Source of the DNA: Gammaproteobacteria bacterium
GTDB taxonomy: Bacteria > Pseudomonadota > Gammaproteobacteria > Steroidobacterales > Steroidobacteraceae
Assembly (NCBI GenBank): GCA_028870355.1
Contig: JAGWPU010000006.1
Coordinates: forward strand, 1-63,953
Reading direction: 5' to 3'
DNA length: 63,953 bases
The notes beneath the pieces were generated by a model. That model searched no databases. It was not told where the DNA came from and saw nothing but the letters and a program-made list of their open reading frames with translations. The position numbers were made by a program, and so were the translations under genes. Below, one piece after another: positions 14,010 to 17,787 of this stretch. The first letter of the stretch is position 1, and each line of letters opens with the position of its first letter.

Positions 14010-14618
14010 TCAGGCCTTCTGCAGCTTTGCAGCCGCGTTCTCGTAATTCGCGAGCCGGTTGAGGAAATTGTCGGTGAAGTCCGGCCGACGATTGCGGAAA
14101 TCGACGTAGTACGCGTGCTCCCAAACGTCCAGCACGAGCAGCACCTTCCCTTCGCCGGTCGCGAGCGGAGTCGCCGCATTCGGGGTCTTCACGATCTTCA
14201 GTTTGCCGGTCGGCGCGAGCACGAGCCACGCCCAGCCGGAGCCGAACTGCCCCAGCGCGGCGGCCTTGAACTGTTCCTTGAACTGCTCGACGCCGCCGAA
14301 ATCCTCGACGAGCTTCTTCTCGAGAACGCCGGGGATACCGCCGCCGTTCGGCGACAGCGACTCCCAGAACACGCTGTGGTTCCAGTGCTGGCCGGCATTG
14401 TTGAACACCGGCTGCAGATCGTCCTTGCCGTAGGCGAGGCGCACGATGTCCTCGAGCGACTTGCCTTTCAGCGCGTCATTCTTCTCGACCAGGCCGTTCA
14501 ATGCGGTCACGTACGCGTTGTGGTGCTTGCCGTGATGCAGCTCCAGCGTCTCCTGGCACATGCCCCGCGCGCTCAAGGCACCGACGGCGAATGGCAAAGC
14601 GGGCAACGTAAAACTCAT
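14010..14618 (-). CDS. sodB: Superoxide dismutase, Fe type
   Basis: This 202-residue enzyme converts superoxide to oxygen and hydrogen peroxide, probably in the cytoplasm since no signal peptide is visible. The four metal ligands are present: H28 (LHHGKHH), H81 (WNHSVFW), D164 and H168 (DVWEHAYYVD). The outer-sphere glutamine just ahead of WNH (AGQHWNH, Q77) and SPNGGG, FGSGWAW favour the iron or cambialistic type over manganese. The ATG at 14618 has GGAGGT upstream. Placement beside a Bat operon fits an oxidative-stress theme but may be coincidental. Confidence 0.96.
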   Translation of the reverse strand: MSFTLPALPFAVGALSARGMCQETLELHHGKHHNAYVTALNGLVEKNDALKGKSLEDIVRLAYGKDDLQPVFNNAGQHWNHSVFWESLSPNGGGIPGVLEKKLVEDFGGVEQFKEQFKAAALGQFGSGWAWLVLAPTGKLKIVKTPNAATPLATGEGKVLLVLDVWEHAYYVDFRNRRPDFTDNFLNRLANYENAAAKLQKA

Positions 14619-14786
14619 TCTTCTTACCTCCGGTAGTGCGGGCCCCACCGATCGCCGCCGAAACGGCGCGGAACGGGCGGAACGACCCTCCCCGGCGCGT
14701 CCGAGCGGCGCGCTCGCAAAGGGGGCGATAGCGTATCACGGCCGCGGCGAATCGTTGTCGGTTACCCGGCCGGCCGCGGGGCGCGG

Positions 14787-15701
14787 TTAGCGCAGGATCC
14801 AGTGCGTCGCCCCTTGAGCGGCGAGGAACGCCTCGGCCGCTGCGCCCTGGAGCATCGCCAGCGTCGAGAGCAAGCCGGCCTCCACGCAACTCGCGGCTGC
14901 GACCGTGACCGAACGGGGCGAACCCGGGGCCGGCCAGCCGGTGCGCGGATCGAGAATGTGGCCGTAACGCCGGCCCTGCTTCAGGAGGTAGCGGCGCGCA
15001 TCACCGCTCGTCGTGAGCGCACCGCGTTCGAGGCCGAGGATCATCGCGGCACGCCGCTCGGACTCCGGCCTCTCGACGCCGATCCGCCACGGTCCGGACG
15101 GCGTCGCGCGGTTCGCGCGCAGGTCGCCGCCGAAGTTCACGAGAAACGGTTCCTGGGTTTCGGCCGCGATGAGCTGGAACACGCGGTCGACCGCATACTC
15201 CTTGCCGAGCCCTCCGAAGTCGAGCTCCATCCCGATCGGCAGGAGCAGACGCGGCGCCTGCCAGCCGAGCTTCGCGAAGCCGACCAAGGGCAGGAGCGCC
15301 GCGACGGCGTCCGCCTCCGGTACGCGCGCCGAACCATCGAATCGCCACGCGCGCCGCAGCACGCCCGAGGTGATGTCGAACGCCCCCTCGCTCAGCGCGA
15401 AGCATTCGCGCGCGAAGTCGAGCAGCGATGCGGTCTCCGGATCGACGAGGATGCCGGCGGGGTCGCCTCGGCTGCGGTGGATCGCGGCGACGACGCTGTC
15501 GTCGCGGTACCGACTGTATTTCGCCTCGATGCGGCCGGCCTCCCGCGCCGCGATCTCCCCGAGCGCACCAGCCCGGTCCGCATCGACGTCGTGCAGCAGC
15601 AGTTCGCAGGGACTTGCCATCGCCGCGAAACACGCGGCGAGGAATCCGTCGCCGCGCCGCTCGATCGTGACCGCGGGTTCCGACGCCGGCCGTTCGCCCA
15701 C
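14787..15701 (-). CDS. apbE: ApbE-family FAD:protein FMN transferase
   Basis: This roughly 304-residue enzyme attaches FMN from FAD to a Thr/Ser of target proteins. Family features are visible: AMASPCELLL near 27, ELDFGGLGKEYAVDRV near 167 (GGxxKG-type), FLVNFGGDLRA near 191 and TSGDARRYL followed by GHILDPRTGWP near 243-264, which hold the FAD and magnesium. The GTG at 15701 is my best start, because the protein needs residues before AMASPCE, and the upstream gene ends only 20 nt earlier. No signal peptide is obvious, so export is uncertain. It is the last gene of the thioredoxin-like/DUF4266/DUF3570 operon, and its substrate is probably DUF3570 (see findings). Confidence 0.92.
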   Translation of the reverse strand: MGERPASEPAVTIERRGDGFLAACFAAMASPCELLLHDVDADRAGALGEIAAREAGRIEAKYSRYRDDSVVAAIHRSRGDPAGILVDPETASLLDFARECFALSEGAFDITSGVLRRAWRFDGSARVPEADAVAALLPLVGFAKLGWQAPRLLLPIGMELDFGGLGKEYAVDRVFQLIAAETQEPFLVNFGGDLRANRATPSGPWRIGVERPESERRAAMILGLERGALTTSGDARRYLLKQGRRYGHILDPRTGWPAPGSPRSVTVAAASCVEAGLLSTLAMLQGAAAEAFLAAQGATHWILR

Positions 15702-15720
15702 GATATTGCCGCAGCGCAGG

Positions 15721-17097
15721 TCAGAACTTGTAACCGACCTGGACCAGGATCGCCTGCAGGCCCGGGTACAGGTCGAGATTCTGCAGCGCTCCGGGCGCCG
15801 CCGGCCGCCGATCCACGATCTGCCGGTAATACTCGACACGGACGCTGAATTCGGAGGTCGTGTGATCGTACCGATCGGTGTTGCGCGCGCCGTATTTCAA
15901 TCCGTAGGTGAATGCGTGGAACGCTCCCAGACGCGAATCGGACGACGCGTTGGCGATCTGCGGCGCCGTGCTGTCGAGCCAGGGCAGGTAGAACCGGGCC
16001 GCCGATTGCCGGTACCAGCGTACGTCGGGTTCGAGAAAGCGGTCGCGACCGGGATTCCACCAGCGGACGTGCAGGTTCACCGTGTCCGAATGCACGCCCC
16101 AGTCGTCCGCGAAATAGCGCGTGGACAAGTCCATCGACAGCCGTCCCCAGGCGGCGCGATTTTCCCAATAGATGCTCTTGCGCACCCGCTGGTCCGGGCG
16201 CTTTTCGTACAGGTATCCGGTCGTGTTCCCGGTCGGATCGATGACCGAGATGATCTTGTACGGATCGTTCAGATAGCCGTGGAAGCGATCGACCGACAGG
16301 TTGAGTTCGCTGATCCACCGCTCGTTCATCACCTGGGTGATCCCGAACGTCGCACCGAGGCCGTCCTTCGTCTTCCCGCCGGTCTTGCGGAACAGCGCAT
16401 AGTCGCTCGCCGGCACCGGTGCGCCGCCGACCGGGTGGACACTGTCGAACTCATTGGTCAGCGTGAGCGACAACGTGGTGTTCTTCTGATTGAAATCACG
16501 GGAAATACCGGCATTCGTGGACAGGGACACGAAATCGCGCTCGTAGGACACGGTGCCGCCGACGCTCGCGCTGGTCAATCGCGACAGCGGCAAGCCCCAG
16601 GTGCCGGTGACGGCGATCCGCTGGTCCTGGTAGTGCGGGTCCGCCGGCAGCGCGCCGGGCTGAACCGTGTAGATCCGCGCGGGCTCGCTCACGAGCTGGC
16701 CTGAGGAGGTGGTGTAGGTCGTCGGCGCCGAGCTCAGCGACGCACCCGACGGTGATGCGAACGTCTGGGGCTTGTTGCTCGGCAAGGCGCCGTTCGGCGA
16801 GCTGCCGGACAAGGAATCGAACACCGCCTCGCCACTGAAGGTCCGACCATCGTCGAGCGTCGTCGAGAAATTCACGATCGGCTCGATCACCCGGACGCGA
16901 CCGTTCTCGTGGTAGTACGCGAGCGCCGTGTCGAAGTGCCACACGTTGGACAGCGCATCCGAAACCGCGTTGGTCGCCTCCTGTCCGTGCGCGGCCGTGG
17001 CGCTCAGCAACGCACAGCTCGCCGCGACCAGACGCCGGCGATCGACTCGCGCGTCCGACGAGGCGCCCGGCGAGCGCTCGCATTCCGTCAGTTGCAT
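15721..17097 (-). CDS. DUF3570 outer-membrane beta-barrel protein
   Basis: This 458-residue protein has a signal peptide (about 21-38, LVAASCALLSATAAHGQ) and then amphipathic beta strands throughout, ending in VQVGYKF; a final Phe is the usual mark of an outer-membrane barrel. It matches DUF3570: SGSSPNGALPSNKPQTF near 97-113 and long Tyr/Arg/Asp strands such as FSVRVEYYRQIVDRRPAA near the end. At 94-100 it carries D-S-L-S-G-S-S, close to the D-x-x-S/T-G-A-T/S flavinylation consensus. It overlaps the DUF4266 gene by 10 nt. The function is not established; it may be a redox-active or transport barrel. Confidence 0.88.
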   Translation of the reverse strand: MQLTECERSPGASSDARVDRRRLVAASCALLSATAAHGQEATNAVSDALSNVWHFDTALAYYHENGRVRVIEPIVNFSTTLDDGRTFSGEAVFDSLSGSSPNGALPSNKPQTFASPSGASLSSAPTTYTTSSGQLVSEPARIYTVQPGALPADPHYQDQRIAVTGTWGLPLSRLTSASVGGTVSYERDFVSLSTNAGISRDFNQKNTTLSLTLTNEFDSVHPVGGAPVPASDYALFRKTGGKTKDGLGATFGITQVMNERWISELNLSVDRFHGYLNDPYKIISVIDPTGNTTGYLYEKRPDQRVRKSIYWENRAAWGRLSMDLSTRYFADDWGVHSDTVNLHVRWWNPGRDRFLEPDVRWYRQSAARFYLPWLDSTAPQIANASSDSRLGAFHAFTYGLKYGARNTDRYDHTTSEFSVRVEYYRQIVDRRPAAPGALQNLDLYPGLQAILVQVGYKF

Positions 17098-17315
17098 CCG
17101 CACCCTCCGCCCGCGAATCCGCTCCCGCCCGACGACGCTTCCTTGCTGAAATACAGGTGGTTGTCGAGCGCGTGGGTCAAGGGCTCGGCCGTGAGTTGCA
17201 TGTCCTCGCGCGCGAGGATCCCGCGCTGCCAGGGCTTCACACCGAGGGAGGCACACCCGCCGAGCGCCAGCGCAGCGGCCGCCACGAGCGCAATCCTTCC
17301 GACTCCGATCCGCAT
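17088..17315 (-). CDS. DUF4266 small lipoprotein with C-terminal CGCN
   Basis: This 75-residue lipoprotein has a signal with lipobox LGGC (acylated Cys21) and the family's VKPWQRGILAREDMQL segment (about 26-41). The tail is Gly/Ser-rich and ends GGGCGCN, so two cysteines spaced by one glycine lie at the very C-terminus. In DUF4266 this combination is expected next to DUF3570 and ApbE. The CGC could form a disulfide handled by the thioredoxin-like protein encoded upstream, or bind a metal; neither is shown by sequence alone. Confidence 0.88.
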   Translation of the reverse strand: MRIGVGRIALVAAAALALGGCASLGVKPWQRGILAREDMQLTAEPLTHALDNHLYFSKEASSGGSGFAGGGCGCN

Positions 17316-17325
17316 GCCGATCCTC

Positions 17326-17787
17326 CTACTTCTGCGCGAGCAACCGTTCGACCTGACGTTCGTAGCCAGCCGCTTTCGATGGCAGGAACCCGATGTGCCG
17401 ATCCCGCACCCGGCCGCGGCGATCGATCAACAGGGTGGTCGGCATCCCGGCGACCGCATAGCGCTTGGCAAGCGAACCGGAGGGGTCGTAGACGATCCGG
17501 AAGCCCGGATGGAAGCGCGCGAGGAAGCGCCGCGCATCGGCGCGGTCACGATCGAGGTCGACGGCGACGACGACGAGGCCGCGCCGGCCATAGGTGCTCT
17601 GCAGCGATTGCATCCACGGAAAGGATTGTTTGCACGGGCCGCACCACGAGGCCCAGAAATCGAGGTACACGACCCGCCCCCGGTAGGCGCCCAGATCGAG
17701 CGCCGGCGCGGCATGCGACGTGCCCGCAAGCGCCGCGAACGCGGTGAGCGCAATCGCCCAATGGTGGATCGATGCGAATCTTGACAC
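17326..17787 (-). CDS. Periplasmic TlpA-like thioredoxin
   Basis: This 153-residue protein has an N-terminal export signal (about 9-27, HWAIALTAFAALAGTSHAA) and a thioredoxin fold with the active site WCGPC (Cys49 and Cys52) and the cis-proline region VAGMPTTLLIDRRG near 110-123. It would reduce or protect cysteines outside the cytoplasm, such as those of the DUF4266 lipoprotein encoded 10 nt downstream. The GTG at 17787 is chosen because it gives a normal signal peptide and has AAGAGGT 5 nt upstream; the longer frame reads into the divergent promoter. It is the first gene of the operon. Confidence 0.9.
   Translation of the reverse strand: MSRFASIHHWAIALTAFAALAGTSHAAPALDLGAYRGRVVYLDFWASWCGPCKQSFPWMQSLQSTYGRRGLVVVAVDLDRDRADARRFLARFHPGFRIVYDPSGSLAKRYAVAGMPTTLLIDRRGRVRDRHIGFLPSKAAGYERQVERLLAQK

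Follow-up and report, generated by a model that had tools for sequence, protein, structure and literature searches.

The window analysed here is a stretch of 63,953 nucleotides from contig JAGWPU010000006.1 of a Steroidobacteraceae genome (Gammaproteobacteria), and it carries on its minus strand four genes that are transcribed in the order TlpA/ResA-like protein, DUF4266 lipoprotein, DUF3570 protein and ApbE-family flavin mononucleotide (FMN) transferase. The first-pass annotation of this DNA had proposed that the DUF3570 protein is flavinylated, pointing to a D94-S-L-S-G-S-S100 motif, to the ApbE homologue beside it, and to a thioredoxin-like protein and a Cys-tailed lipoprotein upstream. All of these are present in the sequence, and the families were confirmed against Pfam. 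The genes and the features within them are as follows.

17326..17787, minus strand: thioredoxin-fold protein of the TlpA/ResA type; its N-terminus is signal-like and CGPC lies at 17632-17643; Pfam Redoxin, 6.6e-21.
17088..17315, minus strand: DUF4266 lipoprotein with the tail GGCGCN; C-x-C at 17094-17102; Pfam DUF4266, 2.6e-22.
15721..17097, minus strand: DUF3570 protein of 458 amino acids, a predicted 16-strand outer-membrane barrel with C-terminal YKF (Pfam and model).
16798..16818, minus strand: site 1, D94-S-L-S-G-S-S100, with Ser100 as the expected FMN acceptor (from motif conservation and the rule in PMC12052999).
16738..16749, minus strand: candidate site 2, S117-G-A-S120, without a leading Asp (from sequence).
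16630..16803, minus strand: long loop, residues 99-156, of the AlphaFold2 model; low confidence around residues 121-140, side deduced.
14787..15701, minus strand: ApbE-family FMN transferase without a visible export signal; Pfam ApbE (PF02424), 2.7e-63.
15198..15200, minus strand: ApbE codon for Glu168, a position occupied by Gly in the canonical ApbEs of the comparison.
14874..14876, minus strand: ApbE codon for Gly276, which stands where Vibrio cholerae ApbE has the triad residue Asp285.

The start of the DUF3570 gene overlaps the DUF4266 gene by 10 nt, and the DUF3570 product matches its Pfam profile (PF12094, 1.8e-106) from position 3 to 427 of 427, that is, over the whole domain. Profile searches of the window genome (2.93 Mb, 162 contigs, ~92% complete) found a single DUF3570 protein, a single ApbE, and no match to FMN_bind, DUF2271 or NqrB/RnfD. 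DUF3570 is therefore the sole substrate of a known kind found in this genome, so that the earlier remark that the cluster holds no other plausible ApbE substrate extends to the genome as assembled. No DsbD gene lies within the cluster, and the sole DsbD_TM match in the genome sits on another contig. Among the best 80 of 306 loci, kept from a scan with motif-bearing patterns, the best named match to the window locus is a Steroidobacteraceae metagenome-assembled genome (L073; 73% identity).

The idea that DUF3570 proteins are flavinylated is not new. As reported in the part of Méheust et al. (2021, PMC8238504) covered here, the DUF3570 protein of Chlorobium luteolum, which has two [S/T]GA[S/T] sites, was shown by experiment to be an ApbE substrate, being flavinylated on co-expression with its cognate ApbE in Escherichia coli, though found mostly in the pellet. 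The central idea of the first-pass annotation was thus already in print, and the features of the window protein fit it. Within the literature searched, this was the sole paper to mention DUF3570 or DUF4266. The same paper describes the ApbE/DUF3570/thioredoxin-like/DUF4266 cluster; the window locus has the same four gene families and resembles 316 of the published clusters in having no adjacent DsbD. By analogy with its homologue, the window DUF3570 is very probably flavinylated.

According to the part of PMC12052999 covered, the flavinylation motif is D-x-x-[S/T]-G-A-[S/T], with FMN on the last residue. Compared with the published motif, site 1 of the window protein has Ser for Ala (SGSS), and a second candidate, SGAS (117-120), overlooked by the first-pass annotation, lacks the leading Asp. 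Motif conservation was assessed in samples unselected by motif: DUF3570 was present in 29 of 398 genomes of the phylum and in 45 of 60 relatives of the window genome, and 89 of 369 genomes of the class gave a match. From the class sample 60 stretches were taken (40 strong and 20 weaker matches), not every row. Of 174 DUF3570 frames in all, one was left out for its score or length. Because the scan patterns contain the motif, loci from the pattern scan were excluded from the motif counts; the ApbE counts include them. The same genome occurs twice among the loci as L034/L122 and as L160/L244, and L073 and L253 look alike.

The DUF3570 proteins form two branches, family A, which matches the Pfam profile along its full length, and family B. 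In the 65 family-A rows, including the window and drawn from loci fetched out of these samples (64 distinct, since G553 was counted twice as L160 and L244), the D, the G and the terminal S/T of the motif are each kept in 65/65, which rules out a chance motif. At position 6, 50 rows have Ala, 14 have Ser and one has Pro. The Ala-to-Ser change that had been regarded as a weakness is thus common in the family. Moreover, Gly-to-Ala and Ala-to-Val changes in the motif cut flavinylation to ~50% in a model protein (PMC12052999, part covered), and in view of this retained activity and of the frequency in the family, Ser at position 6 is no serious objection. Among 18 divergent rows outside the two branches, D is kept in 13, G in 16 and S/T in all 18. 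Close to site 2, a strict [ST]GA[ST] was found in 4/65 family-A rows (the window, L044, L189 and L253) and a looser [ST]Gx[ST] in 22/65.

In the 38 family-B rows the motif reads, for example, YVDxVSSASIDV or YFIDKVSGASVDV. The D is kept in 38/38, and at position 5 there are 13 rows with Gly, 23 with Ser and two with Asn; in the 25 rows without Gly (e.g. L200, L206, L256 and L263) the D and the final S/T are retained, and the Ser/Asn form is possibly a variant flavinylation motif. Other variations were also observed. Three loci (L052, L053 and L056) carry tandem motifs, D-T-[IV]-S-G-G-T and D-[TA]-V-S-G-A-S, ~11 residues apart and with a leaderless ApbE adjoining; the DUF3570 frames of L042 and L203 are, at ~900 residues, twice as long as usual and contain DTWSGAT or a motif resembling it; and L110 has two DUF3570 genes with an identical motif at one locus with a single leaderless ApbE.

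The AlphaFold2 model of the window DUF3570 protein (58 sequences; predicted local distance difference test score, pLDDT, 87.1; predicted template modelling score, pTM, 0.83) has 16 long strands, with low confidence for residues 1-49. Its long strands are antiparallel and even in number, the turns on one side are short and the C-terminal residue is aromatic (YKF), all of which are features of outer-membrane barrels. Of 50 matches listed by Foldseek, most are outer-membrane barrels with TM-scores by query of ~0.2-0.4, at which the barrel class is clear and no specific relative stands out; a sequence search found no solved structure matching DUF3570. The outer-membrane location earlier suggested from the YKF end is supported by the model and by the fold matches. 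Two further ideas about the N-terminal region were rejected. Export by the twin-arginine (Tat) pathway was considered because RRR precedes the hydrophobic stretch in the window protein and its nearest relatives, but by eye it is absent from many family-A proteins; lipidation of a Cys in the signal region was dropped since there is no lipobox and the Cys itself is missing in some family members.

One side of the model consists of turns of 2-6 residues, and the opposite side of the loops 99-156, 221-241, 275-302, 365-392 and 429-446 and three short loops. If, as is usual for barrels, the two termini are periplasmic, loop 99-156 would be extracellular. Whether the motif lies in a loop had been raised as a check in the first-pass annotation; the model places both candidate sites in loop 99-156, which suggests that they lie in a long extracellular loop, with the motif at the outer end of strand 3. 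Alternatively, the flavin may face the periplasm or the barrel lumen and serve a periplasmic thiol-flavin reaction, with none exposed outside. The TlpA-like and DUF4266 partners, whose expected place is the periplasm or the inner leaflet, would suit such an arrangement, as would the low confidence of the loop model around residues 121-140; it is nevertheless somewhat unlikely, given that periplasmic termini make loop 99-156 extracellular and that the turns on the opposite side have 2-6 residues.

No export signal or lipobox was found in the window ApbE by sequence, hydropathy or model, the model (pLDDT 94.5) being ordered from about residue 12 without a leader helix. When a leader was scored as a stretch of mean hydropathy of at least 1.6 within 45 residues upstream of the conserved core, such a stretch was present in 9/128 DUF3570-adjacent ApbEs (130 minus two partial L165 frames) versus 27/30 canonical ApbEs of the window's relatives, with median hydropathies before the core of 0.58 and 2.45, respectively. 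Three of the nine (L196, L205 and L209) are exported and stand beside family B, and among the canonical entries G773 (L291) lacks a clear leader. A misplaced start hiding the leader was rejected, as whole open frames were examined; in 58 of the 128 the entire open frame leaves fewer than 30 residues before the core.

The window ApbE also differs from canonical enzymes in its active site. The catalytic triad is Ser241-His257-Asp285 in V. cholerae ApbE and Ser257-His273-Asp301 in Listeria monocytogenes FmnB (PMC12052999, part covered). The window enzyme shares with these periplasmic ApbEs the Pfam family and the triad Ser and His, retained as Ser232 and His248 at the same spacing; in contrast, it has Gly276 for the triad Asp, Glu168 for Gly, and no export signal, and it lies on a separate branch. 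It was accordingly filed as a variant branch of the family rather than as a canonical ApbE. At positions 168 and 276, 135 of 178 ApbEs have Glu/Gly and 40 have Gly/Asp; Lys/Gly, Glu/gap and Leu/Asn each occur once. In the ApbE tree, the Asp side holds 41 members (40 with Asp and one with Asn) with a support of 0.975; one canonical entry, G411 (L277), has Asn for Asp. From this paired exchange we infer that Glu168 may take over the work of the lost triad Asp. As a separate observation, all 44 leaderless ApbEs of alignment A4 have Cys32 and Cys272, and none of 30 canonical ApbEs has Cys at position 32.

To what extent ApbE accompanies DUF3570 depends on the branch. Neighbours on the same strand within 3 kb were counted in the phylum and class samples. 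DUF4266 is nearby in 48/51 A rows and 22/22 B rows and a TlpA-like gene in 38/51 and 21/22, respectively, whereas ApbE is nearby in 36/51 A rows versus 3/22 B rows. The ApbE co-occurrence that the first-pass annotation had named as a check is thus frequent beside family A and rare beside family B. Seventeen genomes with family A lacking an adjacent ApbE were searched whole (an 18th, that of L127, has an adjacent ApbE). Their loci do not refute the link, since 15 of the 17 have a leaderless-type ApbE elsewhere, 12 checked in sequence (including G600 in L166) and three by profile position only (G527, G803 and G808); the other two, G805 and G806, have only a partial or canonical ApbE.

Among the 60 relatives, a leaderless-type ApbE is present in 14/14 genomes with a family-A DUF3570 and in 1/46 genomes without. 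All 43 family-B genomes carry an ApbE, which is canonical in 38/43 versus 7/17 genomes without B (Fisher p 0.0004, to be read loosely because the relatives are not independent), and the remaining five have the leaderless type only. ApbE types in these tables were assigned by hand, and 20 stretches were afterwards read in sequence. The median signal hydropathy is 1.93 for family A and 2.44 for family B, and the adjacent ApbE is exported in 6/6 family-B cases (L196, L205, L209, L367, L369 and the partial L371).

The association was also followed in a second phylum, that of L127 (labelled Thermoanaerobaculia; 297 genomes, 25 with DUF3570), in which 20 of the 24 further DUF3570 genomes were read. 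Glu/Gly is the pair in all 13 full-length ApbEs whose neighbouring DUF3570 protein carries D..[ST]G[AS]S. The leader measure was recomputed for 8/14 loci, six in which the pattern missed the core being judged by eye; of the seven among these 13 ApbEs to which it was applied, only L354 reaches the threshold, and in the other six no leader is evident by eye. L367 and L369 have Gly/Asp ApbEs with a signal peptide beside DUF3570 proteins carrying TSAS or SSAS, and the partial ApbE of L371 also has a signal peptide. L370 and L372 (the latter Gly/Asp) have ApbEs with signal-like N-termini beside DUF3570 proteins in which no motif was seen, and no ApbE was seen at the L368 locus. The split between family A with leaderless ApbEs and the other branch with exported ones recurs in this phylum. 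The ApbE of L358 is split over two frames, with the Glu in one and the Gly in the other, which may reflect a sequencing error or a broken gene.

It may be argued that some unrecognised route takes the leaderless ApbE into the periplasm, where it would flavinylate DUF3570 in the manner of canonical ApbEs, the more so as ApbE is described as typically periplasmic (PMC12052999, part covered) and as family-B barrels have an exported ApbE in all six adjacent cases. This is unlikely, however, because a leader-like stretch is absent in 119/128 DUF3570-adjacent ApbEs and these differ consistently from the canonical ApbEs of the same genus. Highly improbable is a third possibility, that the Glu/Gly ApbE has another activity such as FAD (flavin adenine dinucleotide) hydrolysis while a different enzyme modifies the motif, or none does: the triad Asp is indeed Gly and a Treponema ApbE homologue has pyrophosphatase activity (source covered in part), but the window genome shows no second ApbE, the triad Ser and His are retained, every family-A sample keeps the motif, and the published cognate ApbE of a DUF3570, whichever active-site type it has, is active (PMC8238504, part covered).

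We therefore prefer a reading in which the four genes would encode a flavin-bearing outer-membrane barrel and its partners. Barrel precursors are kept unfolded in the cytosol before export, so modification there would be feasible. The leaderless ApbE would remain in the cytosol, where FAD is at hand, and would load FMN onto the still unfolded DUF3570 precursor at Ser100 and perhaps also at Ser120; the flavinylated precursor would then be exported by the general secretion (Sec) pathway and folded by the barrel assembly machinery (BAM), so that the flavin would end up in a surface loop or at the barrel mouth. Since a leaderless ApbE would miss its substrate in the periplasm, and the C. luteolum protein was labelled though mostly in the pellet (PMC8238504, part covered), attachment of FMN in the cytosol, before export and barrel assembly, appears somewhat probable. 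Electrons might pass from a DsbD-type protein to the TlpA-like protein, the CxC tail of the DUF4266 lipoprotein and the flavin, and then, as a guess, to an external acceptor. Such a path from periplasmic thiols through the flavin follows the proposal in the part of PMC8238504 covered, is taken over here as it stands, and is doubtful. Tentative, too, is the complete scheme, in which an ApbE subfamily with a relocated carboxylate (Glu next to the conserved Lys) would load barrel precursors in the cytosol before Sec export and so give a haem-free route from periplasmic thiols to the outside, with the sister branch using exported canonical ApbEs.

Several points weigh against attachment of FMN in the cytosol. 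Family B is seemingly served by exported ApbEs, so a barrel substrate need not be loaded in the cytosol, and 15/51 family-A rows have no adjacent ApbE. The absence of a leader was called by hydropathy and by eye rather than with a trained predictor; an upstream hydrophobic stretch occurs in two of the 15 ApbEs of leaderless type found among the 60 relatives (L243, 2.16; L246, 1.83), the Glu/Gly ApbE of L354 reaches 1.64, and three of the 30 canonical ApbEs also fall below the threshold. The lost Asp belongs to the published triad, so the Glu/Gly enzyme could be weak. The support comes from sequence, models and the experiment on a homologue. Finally, we know of no precedent for an FMN-bearing chain passing through Sec.

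The nearest published parallel for a leaderless enzyme is the cytoplasmic ApbE of Klebsiella pneumoniae, which likewise has no signal peptide (PMC12052999, part covered); its substrate is a soluble cytoplasmic fumarate reductase, whereas that of the window ApbE would be an exported barrel, and in the same part cytosolic ApbEs are reported for fumarate reductases only. The main text of PMC8238504, as far as covered, gives no match for barrel, porin or cytosolic ApbE, its signal-peptide calls being in supplementary tables; the leaderless Glu/Gly ApbEs and the two DUF3570 branches, which come from the present analysis, are not discussed in the parts covered. A literature search, with most subscription papers and supplements outside its scope, turned up no description of an exported protein being modified by a leaderless or Glu/Gly ApbE, and no paper since 2021 that connects ApbE with a flavinylated outer-membrane barrel; no such description occurs in the covered parts of PMC11334425 and the preprint PMC10979944. 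Within this search, neither the mostly leaderless ApbEs beside DUF3570, nor the pairing of the Asp-to-Gly change with a gained Glu, nor the second branch with exported Asp-type ApbEs was found in print.

If the proposed scheme is true, covalent flavinylation of an exported protein would be possible outside the periplasm and would need no FAD exporter, and the enzyme would be acting on barrel precursors in their unfolded state. The paired Glu/Gly exchange would represent a second layout of the ApbE active site and an easily read sequence feature by which ApbEs could be assigned to compartments. A flavin at the surface that received electrons from thiols would be a candidate for iron reduction or extracellular electron transfer without cytochromes. 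The part most worth following is an ApbE without a visible leader and with a moved carboxylate that is tied to one branch of barrels.

Directly after the ApbE gene, on the same strand, lies an open reading frame (14010-14648) whose product we take to resemble an iron/manganese superoxide dismutase.

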